A stretch of DNA of 64,000 nucleotides from Steroidobacteraceae bacterium (GTDB lineage: Bacteria; Pseudomonadota; Gammaproteobacteria; Steroidobacterales; Steroidobacteraceae), in assembly GCA_027531255.1 (NCBI GenBank), contig JAPZRU010000002.1, forward strand, positions 496,001 to 560,000. Direction: 5' to 3'. Position numbers and translations under genes: made by a program. The first letter of the stretch is position 1, and every line of letters begins with the position of its first letter. Positions 11,223 to 20,416 of the stretch are shown here, piece after piece. The notes under the pieces are model-generated. The model was not told the origin of the DNA and ran no database searches. It saw only the letters and a list, made by a program, of their open reading frames with translations.

Positions 11223-13025
11223 TCAGCCCCGGCGTAGCAGCCGGGCCCGACCGCCGGTCTCCTCGAGCACACCGACCGCGCCGCCACCGAGGCCGGCCGC
11301 ATTGGCCTCGTCCGTGTCGACGTGCATCTCGAGCCGGAAGTTCTCGCCGACGCGCACCAGCACGTCGCCGAACACGAGGTCGCGCCCGTCCGAATCCACG
11401 CGTACGTCCACGCGGTCGCCGCTCGCGACGCCGAGGGCCTCGGCCTCGGCGGGCCGCATGTGGATGTGGCGCAGTGCGCAGATCACGCCTTTCGGGATCG
11501 TGACCGCGCCGGCCGGACCCTCGATGCGGATGCCCGGGGTGTTGTCGAGGTCGCCGGACTCGCGCACGGGCGCGTCCACGCCGAGCGTGAACTCGTCGGT
11601 GCGCGAGATCTCGACCTGGTCGTTCTGCCGCGGCGGTCCAAGCACGCGCACCTGGTCGAGGTGCCCCTTCGGGCCGACCAGCCGCACGGTCTCCCTGGCT
11701 GCGTACTGCCCGGGCTGCGAGATCGGCTTGAGCGGCGCGAGCTCGTAACCCGGGCCGAACAGCGTGGCGATGCTCCGCTCCGTCAGGTGCACGTGGCGCG
11801 CCGACACCGCGATCGGCACCGTCAGCTCGCCCTTCACTTCGTGGCCGCCCGACACGAGGCGGCGCACGCGCGTCGCGATCGCGAGTTCCTCGTCGGTCGC
11901 GACCACGAGCAGCCGGCAGCGCGCGTGCGGCTCCGAGATCTCGCGGACGCGTGTCGAGTGGTCCACGCGCGCGTCGCGGTTCAGGTCCTCGTCGAGCGCG
12001 GCACCGAGGAACTCGAGCCGCTGCGCGACGCGGTGGCGCACGAGCGCGCTGTTCTGCCCGACGCCGCCGGTGAACACGATCGCGTCGAGACCGCCCATCA
12101 CCGCCGCGTAGGCGCCGACGTACTTGCGGATGCGGTGCGTGTAGATCGCGATCGCGAGCCGCGCGACGTCGTCGCCCGCGGACGCGCGCGCTTCGACCTC
12201 GCGGAAGTCCGGCGTGCCGACGAGGCCGACGAGGCCGGAGTGCCGGTTCAGCAGTTCGTCCACCTCGCCCACCGAGCGCCCGTCGCGCAGGAGCGCGAGC
12301 ACGACGCCGGGATCGAGGTCGCCGGGACGTGTCGCCATCACGAGGCCCTCGAGCGGCGTGAGGCCCATGCTGGTGTCGATGCTGCGGCCGAACTCCACCG
12401 CGCAGACGCTCGCACCGCTGCCGAGATGACAGGTGACGAGCCGCAGCCGGTCCGGGTCGGTGCCGAGGAAGCGCGCCGCCTCGCCCGCGACGAACTCGTG
12501 GCTGGTGCCGTGGAAGCCGTAGCGCCGCAGGCCGAGCGGCTGAGCCACCTCGCGCGGCAGCGCGTACTCGCGCGCGCGGCGCGGCAGCGTGGCGTGGAAC
12601 GCGGTGTCGAACACCGCCACGTGCGGCAGCCGCGGCAGGCGCACGCGCGCGGCGCGGATGCCGGCGAGCGCGGCGGGATTGTGCAGCGGCGCGAGCGGCA
12701 CGAGCGACTCGATGCCGACCTCGACCTCGGCGTCCACGACCACCGGCTTCGTGAAGCGCTCGCCGCCGTGCGCGACGCGATGGCCGACCGCGACGAGCCG
12801 CTGCCGCAGCGCCGGGCGCCGGTCGAGCGCGTCGAGGATCGCGGCGACCGCGTGCGCGTGCTCGGGCGCGTGCACTTCGCCCTCCGAGTCGCCCACGCGC
12901 AGGCGCGGCGCGGAGCCGAGCCCCGTGACCGACAGGTCGAGGACGTGCCTGCCGTCGGCGCCGACGAGGGCCGCCTTGACCGACGAGCTGCCGCAATTGA
13001 CGACCAGTACGAGCGTTTCGTCCAT
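11223..13025 (-). CDS. ackA: Bifunctional acetate kinase - PduL-type phosphotransacylase fusion
   Basis: A 600-residue single chain. Residues 1-398 are a full acetate/propionate kinase: VVNCGSSSVKAAL at the N-terminus, GFHGTSHEFV, TCHLGSGASVCAVEFGRSID, MATRPGDLDPG and VFTGGVGQNS. Residues 399-600 are a full PduL-type phosphate acyltransferase: VPIAVSARHVHLTE with the zinc-binding HVH, QPGQYAARETV, LGPPRQNDQVEISRTD, ALRHIHMRPAEAE and LEMHVDTDEANAAGL. Both halves keep their metal and catalytic residues. The pair interconverts acetyl-CoA, acetyl phosphate and acetate with ATP gain, here joined so that acetyl phosphate could pass directly. ATG 13025 matches the normal AckA N-terminus. No shell protein or other microcompartment gene is near. 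Confidence 0.93.
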   Translation of the reverse strand: MDETLVLVVNCGSSSVKAALVGADGRHVLDLSVTGLGSAPRLRVGDSEGEVHAPEHAHAVAAILDALDRRPALRQRLVAVGHRVAHGGERFTKPVVVDAEVEVGIESLVPLAPLHNPAALAGIRAARVRLPRLPHVAVFDTAFHATLPRRAREYALPREVAQPLGLRRYGFHGTSHEFVAGEAARFLGTDPDRLRLVTCHLGSGASVCAVEFGRSIDTSMGLTPLEGLVMATRPGDLDPGVVLALLRDGRSVGEVDELLNRHSGLVGLVGTPDFREVEARASAGDDVARLAIAIYTHRIRKYVGAYAAVMGGLDAIVFTGGVGQNSALVRHRVAQRLEFLGAALDEDLNRDARVDHSTRVREISEPHARCRLLVVATDEELAIATRVRRLVSGGHEVKGELTVPIAVSARHVHLTERSIATLFGPGYELAPLKPISQPGQYAARETVRLVGPKGHLDQVRVLGPPRQNDQVEISRTDEFTLGVDAPVRESGDLDNTPGIRIEGPAGAVTIPKGVICALRHIHMRPAEAEALGVASGDRVDVRVDSDGRDLVFGDVLVRVGENFRLEMHVDTDEANAAGLGGGAVGVLEETGGRARLLRRG

Positions 13026-13122
13026 GAACCGGGAGGTGTGCGCAGCGAGCGCGCGTTCTGCCTGCGTAAACCGTACTGCGCGCCGGCCGACGCGGCGCGG
13101 ACGGGCGGGACGGGGTGCGGCG

Positions 13123-13134
13123 GATGCTAGCATC
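13123..13134. promoter_or_regulatory. Perfect 12-bp palindrome in the ackA-pduL / AI-2E carrier intergenic region
   Basis: GATGCTAGCATC is a perfect palindrome about 40 nt before the plus-strand ATG at 13175, between the divergent kinase fusion and the carrier. It could be an operator; no second copy is seen, so this is weak. Confidence 0.3.
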
Positions 13135-13174: not shown

Positions 13175-14326
13175 ATGGACCAGCCGGGATCGCCCGCAAA
13201 CGAGGCCGCACCTCCGCGCGACGGCCTGCTGCCGGACGGCACGACGCCGGCGGGACCGACGAGCCGGTTCTACCGCCGCGCGTTCGGGCTCGCGGTCGCG
13301 GCGATCATGGCCGTGCTGCTGTACCGGATCGTCCAGCCGTTCCTCGCGCCGATCGCGTGGGCGATCTTCTTCGCCTTCCTGCTGCAGACGCCGCAGGGCC
13401 GCCTCGCCCGCGCGTGGGGCGGGCGCGACTCGCTGGCGGCGTTCGCGATGACGGTCCTGACGCTGGTCGTGCTGGTAGGCCCCCTGTCGCTGCTGGGCGG
13501 CGCGTTCGCCACCCAGGCCCGTGCGCTGATCGCGGGGCTGCAGCGCTGGGTGACCGAACTCCGGATCCACAGCTTCGCCGACCTCACGGAACTGCCGGCC
13601 ACGCGCCGGGCGCTCGCGTGGCTCGAGCGGCACGTCGCGATCTCCGCCGACCAGCTGCGCGAGTGGGCGGTGGCCGGCGCGCAGCGCGTGCTCGAGCCGC
13701 TCGCCTCGATGGGCGGCCAGGTGTTCCTCGGCGCGGTCGGCACGCTCGTCAGCTTCACCGTCATGCTGTTCGTGCTGTTCTTCCTGGTGCGCGACGGCAC
13801 GCCGATCGCGCGCACGACGCTGCGCCTGATCCCGCTGTCGCCGCCGAAGAAGGAACGACTCGCGCACCACATGGAGGCGGTGACGCGCGCGGTCGTGTTC
13901 GGCACGGTGGTGACCGCGATCCTGCAGGGCCTGCTGGTCGGCATCGGCTTCGCGATCGCGGGCCTGCCGTCCGCGGTCGTGTTCGGCGTGATCGCCGCGG
14001 TACTCTCGGTCGTCCCGTTCGGCGGCACCGCGCTCGTCTGGCTGCCCGGTGCGGCCTACCTCTGGTTCCAGGGCGAAGTCGGCTGGGCGATCTTCCTGCT
14101 GGTGTGGGGCGGCGCGATCGTCGGCCTCGCCGACAACTTCGTGCGGCCGATGCTGATCTCGGGCCGCACCGAGGTGCCGACGCTGGCGGTGTTCATCGGC
14201 GTGCTCGGCGGACTTTCGGCGTTCGGGCTGGTGGGGCTGTTCCTGGGGCCGCTGATCGTCGCGCTCGCGCTCGCGCTCGTGCGGTTCGCCGACGAGTCCA
14301 TCGCGGACGGCGAGCGCAGCGACTGA
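13175..14326 (+). CDS. AI-2E family (PerM/TqsA-type) membrane transporter
   Basis: A 383-residue protein with the AI-2E family layout: paired N-terminal helices (LAVAAIMAVLLYRIVQPFLAP), a periplasmic-loop middle region (residues about 110-180), then the conserved block FVLFFLVRDG, LQGLLVGIGFAIAGLP and the late motif DNFVRPMLISGRTEVPTL. Length is normal. A GGGAGGG lies about 8 nt before ATG. Members export AI-2 in E. coli (TqsA) or act as Na+/H+ antiporters in alkaliphiles; the substrate here is unknown. A second, separate member lies at 40011-41108. Confidence 0.9.
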   Translation: MDQPGSPANEAAPPRDGLLPDGTTPAGPTSRFYRRAFGLAVAAIMAVLLYRIVQPFLAPIAWAIFFAFLLQTPQGRLARAWGGRDSLAAFAMTVLTLVVLVGPLSLLGGAFATQARALIAGLQRWVTELRIHSFADLTELPATRRALAWLERHVAISADQLREWAVAGAQRVLEPLASMGGQVFLGAVGTLVSFTVMLFVLFFLVRDGTPIARTTLRLIPLSPPKKERLAHHMEAVTRAVVFGTVVTAILQGLLVGIGFAIAGLPSAVVFGVIAAVLSVVPFGGTALVWLPGAAYLWFQGEVGWAIFLLVWGGAIVGLADNFVRPMLISGRTEVPTLAVFIGVLGGLSAFGLVGLFLGPLIVALALALVRFADESIADGERSD

Positions 14327-14352
14327 CCTCAGAGCCGGTAGCTCGTCGTCGT

Positions 14353-14916
14353 TCAGCGCACCTCGCAGCGCTCGTCGGTGCAGGCCGCGGCGGCCGTGGT
14401 GGCCGCGCCGACCTCGGCGGTCGCGGCGCGCGCGGCGGCCGCCGCGCGTGCCTCGACCAGCAGCTGCCCGATCTCCGCACCGAGGTGCAGGTCGCTGACC
14501 TGGCCGAAGTGCTGCGCGCGGCGACGACCTGCGTGGTCGATCAGCACGAGCGTCGGCGTGCCGGCCATGTCGTAGGCGGCCATCGTCGCCGGGATGCGTC
14601 CGGTCGGGCGGTCGATCGCCACGGGAAAGCCGATCCGGTACTCGTGGAGGAAGGCCTCGAGCGCCTCGCGCCGGCCCTGCACGTCGTGGTGCTCGAACAC
14701 GGCGTGCAGCCCGACGACCTGCACGTCGGCATCGCGGAACGACGCGCTCACGCGCTGCGCCTGCGGCAGACCGTGCTGCACGCAGCCGGGGCACAGCATC
14801 TGGAACGCCTCGATCACGACCACGCGGCCGCGCAGGCGCGCGAGCGAGAGCGGCTCGCGCGCGTTCAGCCAGCCGGCGACGTCGAGTTCGGGGGCGAGAA
14901 GCGGATCGGCGGACAC
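14353..14916 (-). CDS. Thioredoxin-like/redoxin protein with CPGC motif
   Basis: A 187-residue cytoplasmic thioredoxin-fold protein. GRVVVIEAFQMLCPGC puts a CPGC active-site motif near residue 47, followed by HGLPQAQRV; a later AYDMAGTPTLVLIDHAG contains the cis-proline of the fold. The layout is that of TlpA/AhpC-TSA redoxins, but the domain begins directly without signal peptide. The GTG start at 14916 is preceded by GGAG at about 9 nt; longer in-frame extensions lack family character. The C-terminus is alanine-rich with two further cysteines (CTDERCEVR). It is convergent with the AI-2E carrier. Confidence 0.75.
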   Translation of the reverse strand: MSADPLLAPELDVAGWLNAREPLSLARLRGRVVVIEAFQMLCPGCVQHGLPQAQRVSASFRDADVQVVGLHAVFEHHDVQGRREALEAFLHEYRIGFPVAIDRPTGRIPATMAAYDMAGTPTLVLIDHAGRRRAQHFGQVSDLHLGAEIGQLLVEARAAAAARAATAEVGAATTAAAACTDERCEVR

Positions 14917-15005
14917 GACTGGAGCTCCGTGGGGTGCACTCGCGAGTTCGACGGGGGCTGCGCGGCGTGCCGACGACCCCGAGGGGTCGTCGGCGCGCGC
15001 CGGCG

Positions 15006-15677
15006 TCAGAAATCCCCGTCCTTCACGTACGGGTGGCTCCACAGGATCACCTGCAGCAGCACGGACTTCACCCACGCCTGGTGCATCGCCTCGACCTGCT
15101 CGGGCGAGGCGCCGCCCTTCGCCAGGAACGGCTTCAGCGTCGCGGTGACCGGATAGAGCAGCGCCGGCACGTAACGGTACGCGATGTGCGGCACGGACTC
15201 GACGGCGTCGGTGCGGTTCTTGCCGAAGCGGTGGTGACGACGACCGATCTCGAACTGGTAGTCGAGCCAGCGCTGGTCGTACCGCGCGTTCGCGGTGTCG
15301 AGGATCCACTGCCGGAAGCGGTGCCGCACGGCCGCGAGGTACGCGGCATCCGGCGCACCGGTGCGGGCGTTCCCGAAGTACTGCACGAGCTGCGGCTGCG
15401 AGGCGACGAAGCCGTACCAGACGTCGAGGATGGCTTCGGCCTGCGGCTCGAGGATGGGCGCGGAGGCCCGCAGCGCGGCGAGGTCCTCGTCGCCGAGCAG
15501 CAGCGTGCGCTTCAGCAGGTCGAGTTCCTCGAGCGTCATCGGCGCGCGCGCCACCGCGGGCTGGCCGAGGGTGTAGCCGGGGATGGCCGCTGTCCGGGCG
15601 GCGGTCTCGGCGGCGAGGCTGGACTGGGCGGTCATGGCGATCACTCCTGTGGCAACGAGTCGAAGGATGCGGTTCAC
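15006..15677 (-). CDS. Protoglobin with an N-terminal signal peptide (predicted exported)
   Basis: A 223-residue protein. Residues about 1-23 form a signal peptide (basic NRILR, hydrophobic LVATGVIAM, cleavage region SSLAAE). The mature part is a complete protoglobin: IPGYTLGQPAVARAPMTLEE, LDVWYGFVASQP, RFRQWILDTANARYDQRWLD, GRRHHRFGKNRTD with the likely proximal heme histidine, and HQAWVKSVLLQVILWSHPYV. Known bacterial protoglobins are usually cytoplasmic single-domain heme proteins binding O2, CO and NO. The GTG start at 15677 is supported by GGAGAAG 6 nt upstream. It is divergent from a MarR-type regulator and shares with it a region holding two identical-arm palindromes, one just upstream of this gene's ribosome-binding site. 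Confidence 0.85.
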   Translation of the reverse strand: MNRILRLVATGVIAMTAQSSLAAETAARTAAIPGYTLGQPAVARAPMTLEELDLLKRTLLLGDEDLAALRASAPILEPQAEAILDVWYGFVASQPQLVQYFGNARTGAPDAAYLAAVRHRFRQWILDTANARYDQRWLDYQFEIGRRHHRFGKNRTDAVESVPHIAYRYVPALLYPVTATLKPFLAKGGASPEQVEAMHQAWVKSVLLQVILWSHPYVKDGDF

Positions 15678-15692
15678 GGTCTTCTCCAAGTG

Positions 15693-15707
15693 GTATCGTC
15701 GCGATAC
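15693..15707. promoter_or_regulatory. Operator palindrome GTATCG-N3-CGATAC, protoglobin-proximal copy
   Basis: GTATCG TCG CGATAC is a perfect 6-bp inverted repeat with a 3-nt centre, 16 nt upstream of the protoglobin GTG and overlapping its early leader. The arms are identical to those of the copy at 15748-15762. The two centres are 55 bp apart, fitting a homodimeric winged-helix regulator such as the adjacent MarR-family protein. Confidence 0.75.
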
Positions 15708-15736
15708 TATTTTATCGTGACCCGCCCGCCGCGCCG

Positions 15737-15765
15737 TTGTCAATACGGTATCGCTGCGATACTAT
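15737..15765 (+). promoter_or_regulatory. Promoter of the MarR-family gene; probable leaderless transcript
   Basis: TTGTCA (15737-15742) and TACTAT (15760-15765) are spaced by 17 bp. Transcription would start at about 15772, which is the ATG itself, so the mRNA would have little or no leader; no ribosome-binding site precedes the ATG. The operator palindrome occupies the spacer and overlaps the -10 box, an arrangement for repression or autoregulation. Confidence 0.65.
15748..15762. promoter_or_regulatory. Operator palindrome GTATCG-N3-CGATAC, regulator-proximal copy
   Basis: GTATCG CTG CGATAC has the same arms as the site at 15693-15707 and lies between the -35 and -10 boxes of the regulator's own promoter. 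Confidence 0.75.
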
Positions 15766-15771
15766 TGCGCC

Positions 15772-16353
15772 ATGAGCCCCCGTCCGTCCGCCTACGTGCT
15801 GCTGGAGCGCGTCTCGAACCTGCTCCGCGCCGAACTGCGCAGCGCCGGCGCCGCCGACGAGCTCGAGCCCGTGCACCTGCAGGCGCTCGACTACCTCGAT
15901 CGCGCGAACGCCTACAGCAACACGCCGCTCGCCGTCGCCGAGTACCTCGGGCTCACGAAGGGCAACGTCTCGCAGCGGCTGATCGCGCTGGAACGCGCGG
16001 GCTACCTGAAGCGCACCGCGGACGCGCGGGACCGCCGCGTCTCGCACCTCGCGCTCACCGCGAAGGGCCGCAGCCTGCTGCGCGCCGCCGTGCCGCCGCC
16101 GCACTGGCGAGAGGCGCTCGCCGCCCTGCCCGCGGAGAGCGTCGACCGGCTGGAGCGCGGCCTGCTCGACCTGCTGCGCGCGCTGCAGCTCGCGCAGGGC
16201 GGCCGCAGCTTCGGCGAGTGCCGCACCTGCCGGCACTTCGTCGTCGACGGCGGCCGCTACGCGTGCGGCCTGACGCGGGAGCCGCTCGCCGCGGAGCAGA
16301 CCACGAAGATCTGTCGCGAACACGCGGCGCCGGAGCTGCCGAAGACGGCCTGA
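15772..16353 (+). CDS. MarR-family transcriptional regulator with C-terminal four-cysteine motif
   Basis: A 193-residue protein. Residues about 10-130 are a MarR winged helix-turn-helix: LAVAEYLGLTKGNVSQRLIA is the recognition region and LKRTADARDRRVSHLALT the wing. The C-terminal 45 residues carry a C-x2-C-x11-C-x15-C array (FGECRTCRHF, YACGLT, KICREH) that is not part of a standard MarR and looks like an iron-sulfur or zinc site. It begins 95 nt from, and divergent to, the exported protoglobin gene, and palindromes next to both start sites are the probable binding sites. Control of the globin in response to oxygen, NO or redox is inference. Confidence 0.87.
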   Translation: MSPRPSAYVLLERVSNLLRAELRSAGAADELEPVHLQALDYLDRANAYSNTPLAVAEYLGLTKGNVSQRLIALERAGYLKRTADARDRRVSHLALTAKGRSLLRAAVPPPHWREALAALPAESVDRLERGLLDLLRALQLAQGGRSFGECRTCRHFVVDGGRYACGLTREPLAAEQTTKICREHAAPELPKTA

Positions 16354-16420
16354 GCGCCAGCGCGGCCCGCGGCGCATCATCCGCGCCCGCTCCGGCCACC
16401 GCCCCGCTAGAATCGCCGCC

Positions 16421-18826
16421 GTGCACGCCGACGACCTGCTCCACTCGCTGAACGAAGCCCAGCGCGACGCCGTCTCGGCGCCCTCGGCTCCCATCCTCGT
16501 GCTCGCCGGCGCCGGCTCCGGCAAGACGCGCGTGCTCGTGCACCGCGTCGCGTGGCTGATCTCGCAGGAGCGCGTCTCGCCGCACTCGATCCTCGCGGTC
16601 ACGTTCACGAACAAGGCGGCCGGCGAGATGCGCGGCCGCATCGAGGGGCTCCTCGGCGTGCCGGGCGGCGCGCTCTGGATCGGCACCTTCCACGGCCTCT
16701 CCCACCGGCTGCTGCGCCTGCACTGGCGCGAGGCCGGCCTCGTGCAGAACTTCCAGATCCTCGACTCCGAGGACCAGTTGCGCCTGATCAGGAAGGTCGT
16801 GCGCCAGATGGAGCTCGACGAGGCGCGCTGGGTGCCGAAGGAGATCCAGTACTTCGTCAACGCGCAGAAGGACGAGGGCCGCCGCCCGAAGCACCTCGCG
16901 GACGAAGGCGATCCCACGCGCCGGCAGATGATCAAGCTCTACGCCGCGTACGAGGAGCAGTGCCGCCGGCTCGGCGTCGTCGACTTCGCGGAACTCCTCC
17001 TGCGCTGCTTCGAGGTGCTGCGCGACCAGCCGCAGCTGCTCGACCACTACCGCCGTCGCTTCCGGCACGTGCTCGTGGACGAGTTCCAGGACACCAACTC
17101 GATCCAGTATGAGTGGGTGCGCCTGCTGTGCGGGCCCGACACGCTGCCGTTCGTCGTCGGCGACGACGACCAGTCGATCTACGGCTGGCGCGGCGCGAAG
17201 GTCGAGAACATCCGCCGCTACCAGCGCGACTTCCCGGGCACGAAGGTGTTCCGCCTCGAGCAGAACTACCGCTCTACGGCCACGATCCTGAACGCCGCGA
17301 ACGCGCTGATCGCGAACAACACCGGCCGCATGGGCAAGACGCTGTGGACCAGCGGCGACCGCGGCGAGCCGATCCGCCTGTACGCCGCCTTCAACGAGCG
17401 CGACGAGGCGGAGTTCGTCGTCGAGCGCATCCGCGACTGGGTGCGGATGGGCGGCGCCAGGCAGGGCTGCGCGGTGCTCTACCGCTCGAACGCGCAGTCG
17501 CGCGTGATCGAAGAGGCGCTGATCCAGCACCGGATCCCGTACCGCGTCTACGGCGGCCTGCGCTTCTTCGAGCGCGCGGAGATCAAGGACGCTCTCGCGT
17601 ACCTGCGGCTGATCTCGAGCCGCATCGACGATCCGTCGTTCGAACGCGTCGTGAACCTGCCGACGCGCGGCATCGGCGCGAAGAGCCTCGACGCGGTGCG
17701 CGAGCACGCGCGCGCGCACGGCGGCTCGCTGTGGGAAGCCTCGCACGCCGTGATCCGCGGCGGCTCGCTCGGTGCCAAGGGCGCGCAGTCGCTGAACGCG
17801 TTCCTGGCCCTGATCGAGAAGCTCGCGGGCGAGACGAAGGATCTGCCGCTGCACGAGCAGGTGGACGCCGTGATCAACGGCTCGGGACTGGTGGAGCACT
17901 ACCGGAAGGAGAAGGGCGACCGCGGCGAGGCGCGCGTCGAGAACCTCGAGGAACTGGTGTCCGCCGCGCGCGGCTATTCCGTCGAGCAAGGCTCGGACCT
18001 GCCGCCGCTGGAGTCCTTCCTCGCGCACGCGGTGCTCGAGAGCGGCGAGGGCCAGGCCGGCGAGTGGGAAGACAGCGTCCAGATGATGACTCTGCACACC
18101 GCGAAGGGCCTCGAATTCCCGGTGGTGTTCCTCTGCGGGCTCGAGGACGGCCTGTTCCCGCACCAGCGCTCCGTCACCGACATCGGCGGGCTGGAGGAGG
18201 AGCGCCGTCTCGCCTACGTCGGCGTCACGCGCGCGATGCAGCGGCTCTACGTCACGTATGCGGAGCAGCGGCGCCTGCACGGCGTCGACCAGTTCGGCAC
18301 GCCCTCGCGCTTCATCGCGGAACTGCCGCCGGAACTCGTCGAGGAAGTGCGGCCGCGCGTGCAGGTCTCGCGGCCACTGTACGGCGGCGGCGGGAGCGGC
18401 CGCGGCGAGTGGGACGAGTACGGCCGGCCGCGACCCGGGGCGGGCGGGTACGGCGGGGCCTACGGTGGCGGCGGAAACGGTGGCGGCTCGCGCGGCGGTT
18501 ACGGCGGCGGCGAGCGCTACGGCAGCGGCAGCACCAGCGGGCGCGGCGGCGCGGGCGCCGGCACCACGAGCCGTCCGCGTCGCGACGACTACCCGGCCGG
18601 CGGCTACGGCGCGGGCCACCGCGGCGGGCTCGGCGGCGCGACCGCGCTCGAGGAACCCGCCTCGCACGGCTTCCGGCTGGGCCAGCGCGTCCGGCACGGC
18701 AAGTTCGGCGACGGCGTGATCCTGCGGCTCGACGGCACCGGGGCGCAGACCCAGGTCGAGGTCAACTTCGAGCGCGCCGGCCGCAAGGTGCTGATGCTGG
18801 CCTACGCCAACCTGCAGACGCTCTGA
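16421..18826 (+). CDS. uvrD: DNA helicase II (UvrD) with a long glycine-rich linker
   Basis: An 801-residue SF1A helicase. It has the Q motif (LNEAQRDAV), Walker A GAGSGKT (residues 30-36), TFHGLSHRLL, DEFQDTNS near 219, GDDDQSIYGWRGA, LEQNYRS, MTLHTAKGLEFPVVF and the C-terminal VAYVGVTRAMQRL-type box. The last 45 residues (GFRLGQRVRHGKFGDGVI) are the tudor-like UvrD C-terminal domain. Between them, about residues 652-740, is a Gly/Arg/Tyr-rich low-complexity linker much longer than in E. coli UvrD (720 residues). The GTG at 16421 matches the family N-terminus. Its job is strand unwinding in nucleotide excision and mismatch repair. Confidence 0.93.
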   Translation: MHADDLLHSLNEAQRDAVSAPSAPILVLAGAGSGKTRVLVHRVAWLISQERVSPHSILAVTFTNKAAGEMRGRIEGLLGVPGGALWIGTFHGLSHRLLRLHWREAGLVQNFQILDSEDQLRLIRKVVRQMELDEARWVPKEIQYFVNAQKDEGRRPKHLADEGDPTRRQMIKLYAAYEEQCRRLGVVDFAELLLRCFEVLRDQPQLLDHYRRRFRHVLVDEFQDTNSIQYEWVRLLCGPDTLPFVVGDDDQSIYGWRGAKVENIRRYQRDFPGTKVFRLEQNYRSTATILNAANALIANNTGRMGKTLWTSGDRGEPIRLYAAFNERDEAEFVVERIRDWVRMGGARQGCAVLYRSNAQSRVIEEALIQHRIPYRVYGGLRFFERAEIKDALAYLRLISSRIDDPSFERVVNLPTRGIGAKSLDAVREHARAHGGSLWEASHAVIRGGSLGAKGAQSLNAFLALIEKLAGETKDLPLHEQVDAVINGSGLVEHYRKEKGDRGEARVENLEELVSAARGYSVEQGSDLPPLESFLAHAVLESGEGQAGEWEDSVQMMTLHTAKGLEFPVVFLCGLEDGLFPHQRSVTDIGGLEEERRLAYVGVTRAMQRLYVTYAEQRRLHGVDQFGTPSRFIAELPPELVEEVRPRVQVSRPLYGGGGSGRGEWDEYGRPRPGAGGYGGAYGGGGNGGGSRGGYGGGERYGSGSTSGRGGAGAGTTSRPRRDDYPAGGYGAGHRGGLGGATALEEPASHGFRLGQRVRHGKFGDGVILRLDGTGAQTQVEVNFERAGRKVLMLAYANLQTL

Positions 18827-19825: not shown

Positions 19826-20416
19826 ATGACCACGCTCGTCCTCGGCCTCGTCCTGTTCCTCGGCATCCACTCCATTTCCATCTTCGCGCACGGCGCCCGC
19901 AACGCCGCGGCCGCGAAGCTCGGCGTATGGGGCTGGAAGGCCGTCTATGGCGTGATCGCCCTGGTCGGCTTCTGGCTGATGATCCGCGGCTACGCGCAGG
20001 CGCGGCTCGAGCCGGTGGTGCTGTACGTGCCGCCCACGTGGCTGCGGCACGTCGCGTTCCTGCTGATGCTGCCGGTGTTCGTGCTGCTGCTGGCGACCTA
20101 CCTGCCGGGCCGCATCAAGACCGCGACGAAGCACCCGATGCTGGCGGCGACGAAGGCGTGGGCGCTCGCGCACCTGCTCGCGAACGGCATGCTCCACGAC
20201 GTGCTGCTGTTCGGCGGCTTCCTCGCGTGGGCGGTCGCGGACCGTATCTCGCTGAAGCGCCGGGCGGAGGTGCGCGTGATCACCGTTGCACCGGCCTCGA
20301 AGCTCAACGACGTGATCGCGGTGGTCGGCGGTGTCGTCCTCTACTGGCTGTTCGCGTTCCACCTCCACACCGTCCTGTTCGGCGTCTCGCCGATGGGCGG
20401 CGTGGGCGGCGGCTGA
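19826..20416 (+). CDS. NnrU family integral membrane protein
   Basis: A 196-residue protein with about five hydrophobic helices. The opening [19 protein letters not shown], the [18 protein letters not shown] segment, [13 protein letters not shown] and [29 protein letters not shown] are the NnrU-family signatures. NnrU was found in rhodobacterial denitrification clusters and has a presumed role near nitric-oxide metabolism; its biochemical activity is unknown. No denitrification gene is visible here. A GGAGCCGCC leads into the ATG. Confidence 0.88.

Follow-up and report, generated by a model that had tools for sequence, protein, structure and literature searches.

The subject of this report is a locus of a Steroidobacteraceae bacterium, found in a 64-kb stretch of DNA (the window) from a genome of 4.2 Mb that is 95.6% complete, in which a protoglobin gene faces the divergent gene of a MarR-type regulator with a four-cysteine tail, across an intergenic region holding two exact palindromes. 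We consider it probable that this is an autoregulated divergent stress switch, which would release an interchangeable gas-reactive heme protein. The elements carrying this reading, all of them features of sequence, are the anatomy of the locus, the conservation of operators and cysteines in relatives, the swapping of the partner protein and, in a few genomes of the window's family, the occurrence of either a protoglobin or a cytochrome c'-beta. Genomes and loci are designated below by our own handles (G or L followed by a number).

In the proposed mechanism, a MarR-type dimer with a four-cysteine C-terminal domain, which probably binds a metal or a cluster, would sit on the two palindromes – one in the regulator's own, probably leaderless promoter, the other beside the start of a protoglobin-redoxin operon – and would repress both sides. 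Reactive nitrogen species (nitric oxide (NO), peroxynitrite, possibly hydroxylamine) or peroxide would damage or modify the four-cysteine site, upon which the modified repressor would release the DNA and a gas-reactive heme protein would be made, here a protoglobin probably sent to the periplasm, together with a thiol redoxin. The effector slot would be swappable, with relatives using c'-beta, an exported truncated globin or the heme protein HTHP under the same type of regulator and often the same operators. Repression, the metal or cluster, the ligand, export in this organism and cotranscription of the redoxin are what we infer.

Anatomy of the locus

15006-15677, minus strand: protoglobin gene, GTG start at 15677, in-frame ATG alternative at 15635
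15612-15677, minus strand: codons of a probable Sec signal peptide, MNRILRLVATGVIAMTAQSSLA (heuristic, end point by eye)
15693-15707: distal candidate operator GTATCG-TCG-CGATAC, exact, 15 nt upstream of the protoglobin GTG start
15737-15765, plus strand: promoter TTGTCA-17-TACTAT of the MarR gene (promoter scan)
15738-15743, minus strand: TTGACA overlapping the MarR promoter (by eye), no second box found
15748-15762: proximal candidate operator GTATCG-CTG-CGATAC, exact, in the MarR promoter
15772-16353, plus strand: MarR-type regulator of 193 amino acids (PF12802, PF01047), divergent from the protoglobin
16210-16323, plus strand: C-terminal four-cysteine domain FGxC-x2-C-x11-C-x15-C-x-EH, residues 147-184
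14970-14993: GC hairpin CCGACGACCCC-GA-GGGGTCGTCGG between protoglobin and redoxin (by eye)
14353-14916, minus strand: redoxin, AhpC/TSA-like (PF00578), FQMLCPGC motif, GTG start

An earlier note on this DNA had described a full protoglobin, a divergent MarR-type regulator with a C-x2-C-x11-C-x15-C tail and two GTATCG-N3-CGATAC palindromes, one of them between the boxes of the TTGTCA-17-TACTAT promoter, all of which was borne out. The protoglobin matches PF11563 (E=1.9e-34, 119.4 bits vs a cut-off of 25) and is identical to the protoglobin of Methanosarcina acetivorans (2veb) at 112 of 191 aligned positions (59%). It keeps W60, Y61, R92, F93 and H120 of 2veb, among them the heme-pocket residues W60, Y61, F93 and H120, and differs at positions 145 (F to L) and 149 (I to V). 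It is also unlike 2veb in its probable signal peptide and in the adjoining regulator and redoxin. The redoxin gene, absent from the earlier note, follows the protoglobin on the same strand and is probably cotranscribed with it. The hairpin between them is a perfect GC stem of 11 bp with a 2-nt loop and no T run, and our scan of the locus called no terminator between the two genes.

The regulator matches PF12802 (E=1.3e-10, 41.7 bits, cut-off 27), over residues 31-89 for the MarR match, and PF01047 (26.8 bits, cut-off 24.6). No NCBIfam MarR equivalog matched at its cut-off, and no Rrf2 family, the fold of NsrR, was among the matches listed at E<=1. An AlphaFold model built from eight sequences (mean predicted local distance difference test score, pLDDT, 81.6) has a MarR body, for which Foldseek found MepR as best match (E 5.7e-08) and also MftR and PecS, followed by a tail modelled as a beta hairpin and a short helix (pLDDT ~57-82), which would suit a metal knuckle. 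This tail, in which no Pfam match was found at E<=1, bears Cys150-x2-Cys153-x11-Cys165-x15-Cys181.

Conserved cysteines and twin candidate operators

The alignment comprised 35 regulators: that of the window, 16 loci from 15 genomes of the class, seven named genome contigs, two genomes of the family and nine plasmid records. Among them, L027 is a near copy of L028, a single genome supplied both L015 and L021, and the Hymenobacter regulator, missed by tblastn, was included by its annotation and cysteine motif; L055 (partial family match), L030 and L031 (Actinobacteria, short matches) and weaker plasmid matches were left out. Own genome included, regulators of this type were matched in 16 of 274 genomes of the class (E<=1e-20) and four of 217 of the family (E<=1e-15). 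At E<=1e-5 they were also matched on 144 plasmid records, which include many near copies and some short or weak matches. Pseudomonas aeruginosa has one as well, presumably under the locus tag PA0942, which in excerpts of two publications figures only as a list entry among regulators or oxidative response genes. All four cysteines are kept in 35 of 35, with spacings of 2, 11-15 and exactly 15, a count that describes the family rather than tests it, since its members were chosen as relatives by similarity.

The two palindromes, whose starts are 55 bp apart, are the only exact copies of GTATCG-N3-CGATAC in the whole genome; the sole site elsewhere with one mismatch lies within an open frame of contig C32, and sites with two mismatches are also present elsewhere. 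The window motif was searched for ahead of all 35 regulators, that of the window among them, over at most 260 bp (60 bp for L016), and in order-1 Markov shuffles. At least one site was found at 14, 23 and 27 of the 35 loci with <=1, <=2 and <=3 mismatches (shuffles 0.02, 0.36 and 3.37), and at least two sites at 4, 12 and 21 (shuffles 0.0, 0.0 and 0.28), so that twin putative operators, which the earlier note had proposed to look for in other genomes, are kept well beyond this one (12 of 35 at <=2 mismatches). A perfect 6+6 dyad, whatever its letters, occurs at the distal position in 15 of 35 (0.84 expected) and at the proximal one in four (0.29 expected), two of these (L012, L016) being another dyad that overlaps the site. 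Some changes are matched on both arms, namely GTTTCG/CGAAAC in L014, L021 and G586, and GTAGCG/CGCTAC in Phaeobacter. On genome uniqueness, the shuffle counts in relatives and the conserved dyads, chance palindromes were rejected.

The proximal palindrome lies in the spacer of the MarR promoter and reaches three bases into its second box. This promoter is the only promoter-like match in 14300-16460 (shuffle mean 0.0, sd 0.2), and its second box stops 6 nt short of the MarR ATG, which is why the MarR mRNA is probably leaderless. The exact promoter string lies upstream of 15 of the 35 regulators (0.0 expected); 11 of these have the start codon 5-8 nt after the second box, again suggesting a leaderless mRNA, and the other four, in Pseudomonas and Enterobacteriaceae, have a gap of 19 nt with a Shine-Dalgarno sequence. 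For the globin side, the minus-strand TTGACA is a possible promoter box.

A swappable heme protein opposite the regulator

At the 35 loci, the DNA up to 5 kb from the regulator was searched by tblastn (E<=1e-4) for partners belonging to 11 seed families, a design in which heme families outside the seeds could have been missed. A heme protein was found at 17 of 35: c'-beta/P460 at 11, protoglobin at four, truncated globin at one and HTHP alone at one. Ten of the 11 c'-beta/P460 partners were found directly and the last, that of L043, via its probable split contig partner L074, with operators at its end. Pfam matches of representatives were PF16694 (P460), PF01152 (truncated globin), PF11534 (HTHP), PF09630 (DUF2024) and PF07073 (Rho-binding antiterminator, ROF); PF16694 was checked on the L036 homologue only, the other c'-beta partners being called by tblastn similarity to it. 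The protoglobin slot is that of the window, G450, a plasmid of Agarilytica and, by annotation, Hymenobacter. In Agarilytica, the genes of an exported protoglobin and a four-cysteine MarR are divergently arranged, and there are two sites, each with two mismatches. The slot of L025 holds an exported truncated globin and a redoxin, and redoxins of the same family as that of the window occur in clusters L050, L047, L025, L065 and L052. HTHP is part of the divergent clusters of Ruegeria pomeroyi and G450 and lies beside protoglobin in Hymenobacter and G534; no match to it was found beside the window locus. The most complete cluster is that of G450, a member of the window's family, with protoglobin, HTHP, redoxin, MOSC and the FDI protein described below.

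The pairing of protoglobin with this regulator, as the earlier note proposed it, thus stands in part: it recurs with an exported protoglobin in Agarilytica, but 31 of the 35 regulator loci are without a recognised protoglobin, and it is not exclusive, as G534 shows below. In keeping with the gas-binding role suggested for the globin, partner heme proteins at the 17 loci include kinds linked in print to NO binding. The iron-sulfur or metal site of the earlier note may be a cluster, Zn or plain thiols, and the protection of the respiratory chain that it suggested would be conjectural.

Two further observations concern the neighbours themselves. The FDI family, exported and of ~245 amino acids (FDI...SHPDFDDTPL...HSHWVVL...), is found in L045, L047, L050, L058, L064 and L065; it recurs beside the four-cysteine MarR, in some cases with HTHP and protoglobin genes, and had no Pfam match at E<=0.1 in the one member scanned. 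In L060, L061 and L066 (P. aeruginosa, Enterobacter and Lelliottia), the four-cysteine MarR faces a divergent set of glutaredoxin-like, DUF2024 and ROF genes and has the same operators; L062 has this gene set without DUF2024.

Protoglobin or cytochrome c'-beta in the window's family

The closest regulator to that of the window by identity within the family is that of G586 (54-56%), which faces a c'-beta with a signal peptide. This partner has as its best solved match 6hih (E=1.3e-49; 7.2e-17 for the best P460-named entry), which was deposited as a cytochrome c and which we take to be the c'-beta of Methylococcus capsulatus. The fold of 6hih, with its c-type heme, is unrelated to that of protoglobin. 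The G586 protein retains CXXCH and, unlike 7zs4 and 7zqz, Phe at two positions; by this motif, by Phe in place of the cross-linking Lys and by its match to the Cytochrome_P460 fold of 6hih, it is a c'-beta.

Protoglobin is rare (own genome included, 1/274 genomes of the class, 2/196 of the order, 3/217 of the family and 2/398 of the phylum), and c'-beta/P460 matches at E<=1e-6 were found in 14 of the 20 genomes searched for them, the six without being G000, G450, G534, G198, G139 and G268. G000, G450 and G534 hold a protoglobin and no c'-beta match, G586 the reverse; the absences in G534 and G586 are weak because these genomes are 67% and 84% complete. Since the family genomes examined have one or the other, and never both, the two proteins appear, from this small number of genomes, to be alternatives controlled by one switch.

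In the regulator tree, the window groups with L025, the truncated globin locus (support 93/89, below our star), near c'-beta-paired regulators, and in another clade (100/99) the Agarilytica and G450 regulators join those of Rhodobacterales; the Hymenobacter branch is long. The starred branches force at least two changes of the protoglobin label, but this is equalled by shuffled labels in 118 of 500 cases, and the deep forks are open.

Points that weigh against a common switch

Several observations do not sit easily with a heme-protein switch, the first being that 18 of the 35 regulator loci lack any heme family sought within 5 kb. Those of Pseudomonas, Enterobacter and Lelliottia have glutaredoxin-like and ROF genes, mostly with DUF2024; others have an ABC transporter (Leisingera), DUF2024 alone (L042, L023) or the FDI family (L045, L047, Phaeobacter); and nothing sought was found within 5 kb at L037, L041, L046, L024 and L026-L029. 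No site at <=3 mismatches was found at eight of the 35 loci (L008, L015, L019, L026-L029 and Hymenobacter). At L034, the c'-beta gene shares its strand with the regulator instead of being divergent, and in G249 the c'-beta is far from both regulators, with no site at <=2 mismatches in its locus. In G534 (L052), protoglobin, redoxin and HTHP face a regulator that by eye looks like HxlR rather than a four-cysteine MarR, and G735 has a protoglobin and two weak P460 relatives with no such regulator nearby. As for the signal, the one search made for an NO producer in the own genome (NirK) found none, and peroxide would explain the HTHP, redoxin and catalase neighbours no less well than NO.

What the switch might sense

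The likeliest signal is NO or a related species, with peroxide as a serious rival. The protoglobin of M. acetivorans reduces nitrite and isomerises peroxynitrite (PMC4020757), although its role has been called unknown (PMC3680402), and roles in nitrosative (NO) defence and in NO trafficking have been proposed for cytochromes c', c'-beta included, in a review that also calls their role undetermined (PMC11928373). The two heme-copper oxidase matches of the own genome are one aa3-type (below the NCBIfam cut-off, partial stretch) and one cbb3-type, which is why we count no NorB there. The window also has a gene for an NnrU-family protein at 19826-20416 on the plus strand (PF07298, E=2.5e-53), ~3.5 kb from the regulator. 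It is on the cited roles of protoglobin and c'-beta, the lack of NorB and NirK matches and the NnrU gene that the preference for NO is based.

A regulator that senses peroxide or thiol-oxidising stress instead, through a Zn-thiolate or disulfide switch, with heme proteins acting as peroxidases, is possible though on balance unlikely. It would account for the redoxin, glutaredoxin-like, AhpD-like, HTHP and catalase neighbours, and one c'-beta (NeCP-beta) has a reported peroxidase-like activity (PMC11928373), but the published roles of c'-beta and protoglobin centre on NO and peroxynitrite (PMC11928373, PMC4020757), and hmpA and an Rrf2 regulator are annotated beside the Hymenobacter cluster.

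Is the protoglobin exported?

Protoglobins are usually assumed to be cytoplasmic. We think it fairly likely that the protoglobin of the window is exported to the periplasm, as its sequence suggests. From the GTG at 15677, with GGAG 6 nt upstream, it would begin MNRILRLVATGVIAMTAQSSLAAET, which passes a home-made heuristic for Sec signal peptides (n-, h- and c-regions); the heuristic puts cleavage after residue 19, and after residue 22 is preferred by eye. When a start codon and 13 codons from anywhere in the window were joined to the same tail, 33 of 3206 passed (8 of 203 with a Shine-Dalgarno sequence required), both sets containing the real site and maybe other real signal peptides. The signal peptide of the window appears moderate in strength, with a best 10-residue mean hydropathy of 2.04 (2.3-3.41 in six exported partners and 3.04 in the Agarilytica protoglobin, by the same heuristic). 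The latter (WP_103654398.1) begins MRKLIRVVCCCFIVLSPFVSAGKD, a clear signal peptide from an annotated ATG start, and signal peptides are carried by three c'-beta partners and by the truncated globin (those tested, with the same heuristic).

Export is weakened by an inner start and by cytoplasmic homologues. Translation from the in-frame ATG at 15635, which has an AGGAG 8 nt before it, would leave the protein in the cytoplasm, and the homologues of G450 (MSAPVIPGYK), G534 (MAQTTTIAGYT), G735, Cupriavidus and Hymenobacter (as annotated) have no signal peptide. The signal peptide of the earlier note would belong to the GTG form and not to the ATG form; homologues do start downstream of it in these five cases, but not in Agarilytica. 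The same switch could thus command a cytoplasmic protoglobin, translated from 15635 with the apparent signal peptide as mere leader sequence. We find this doubtful: the family homologues of G450 and G534 do begin there (G735 and Cupriavidus alike, by eye), but the upstream GTG is likewise preceded by a GGAG, the extension has all three regions, which few controls achieve, and both the paired Agarilytica homologue and the partners tested point to export.

Remaining alternatives

It is quite unlikely that the module detoxifies hydroxylamine or N-hydroxy compounds. Cytochrome P460 oxidises hydroxylamine (PMC11928373), MOSC genes are found in L050, L058, L063, L064 and L065, and the protoglobin Noc1089 of Nitrosococcus oceani, listed next to nitrosocyanin, has ratios of 8.25 and 4.58 in a table of energy-induced vs starved cells (PMC3772326). 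Nevertheless, the G586 partner matches 6hih far better than any P460-named entry and keeps the two Phe positions that set it apart from 7zs4 and 7zqz, and no MOSC match was found within 5 kb of the window regulator. That regulator and protoglobin are chance neighbours, with palindromes serving the regulator alone, is very improbable: protoglobin is indeed rare and unrecognised at most regulator loci (see the counts above), but the pair recurs in G450 and Agarilytica, and 15 of 35 loci have a perfect dyad on the partner side, at a distance of 45-110 bp from the start of the regulator.

Relation to known systems

The MarR repressors MepR, MftR, PecS and FabT, which have small-molecule ligands, share the MarR fold and the Pfam match with the window regulator, but among the matches listed, alignments to solved structures cover the MarR body, with 131-147 columns for the 193 residues, and not the four-cysteine tail. 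Fe-S regulators that control NO defence, NsrR (Rrf2) among them, resemble it in proposed role, i.e. a Cys-ligated site and derepression of NO-reactive heme proteins; NsrR would nonetheless differ in fold family and presumably in Cys spacing. CioR of Chromobacterium violaceum is likewise a MarR-family repressor of a gas-related respiratory target, and its DNA binding is abolished by metals in vitro. It is of the GbsR type, however, with one Cys (C52) mentioned and cytochrome bd as target, and since a four-cysteine tail goes unmentioned in the excerpts, it was ruled out as the same regulator (PMC11837568).

The excerpts of the c'-beta review name no regulator or operon, and 'marr' therein, considered as a published link between MarR and c'-beta, was read as the author name Marritt in one of its two occurrences (PMC11928373). 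Among the literature matches listed, which mostly do not cover subscription journals and were seen in part, we met no description of this regulator, none that connects it with c'-beta, protoglobin or HTHP, and none of a protoglobin that is exported.

Other genes of the window

The gene after the regulator encodes a UvrD/PcrA-type helicase and looks unrelated. At 11226-13130, on the minus strand, an acetate kinase (PF00871) and a PduL-type phosphotransacylase (PF06130) are fused in one open frame.

Concluding remarks

The locus of the window is best read as a divergent stress switch with an exchangeable effector. A bolder proposal, which we put forward only tentatively, is that MarR proteins which bear a metal or cluster and sense reactive nitrogen species form a widespread, so far undescribed family in control of swappable, mostly exported, gas-reactive heme proteins. 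These would be of four kinds with no relation to one another, namely protoglobin, truncated globin, cytochrome c'-beta and HTHP, and the proteins of the window and Agarilytica may be the first periplasmic protoglobins. A shared regulator with shared operators would (i) tie protoglobin, cytochromes c', truncated globin and HTHP to one stimulus and (ii) make the four-cysteine MarR a candidate regulator for cytochrome c'-beta, for which none is described in the excerpts of literature searched. Because the same type of repressor and the same DNA sites adjoin different heme proteins in other bacteria, these loci point to a switch for defence against nitric oxide and other reactive gases that may so far have escaped description.

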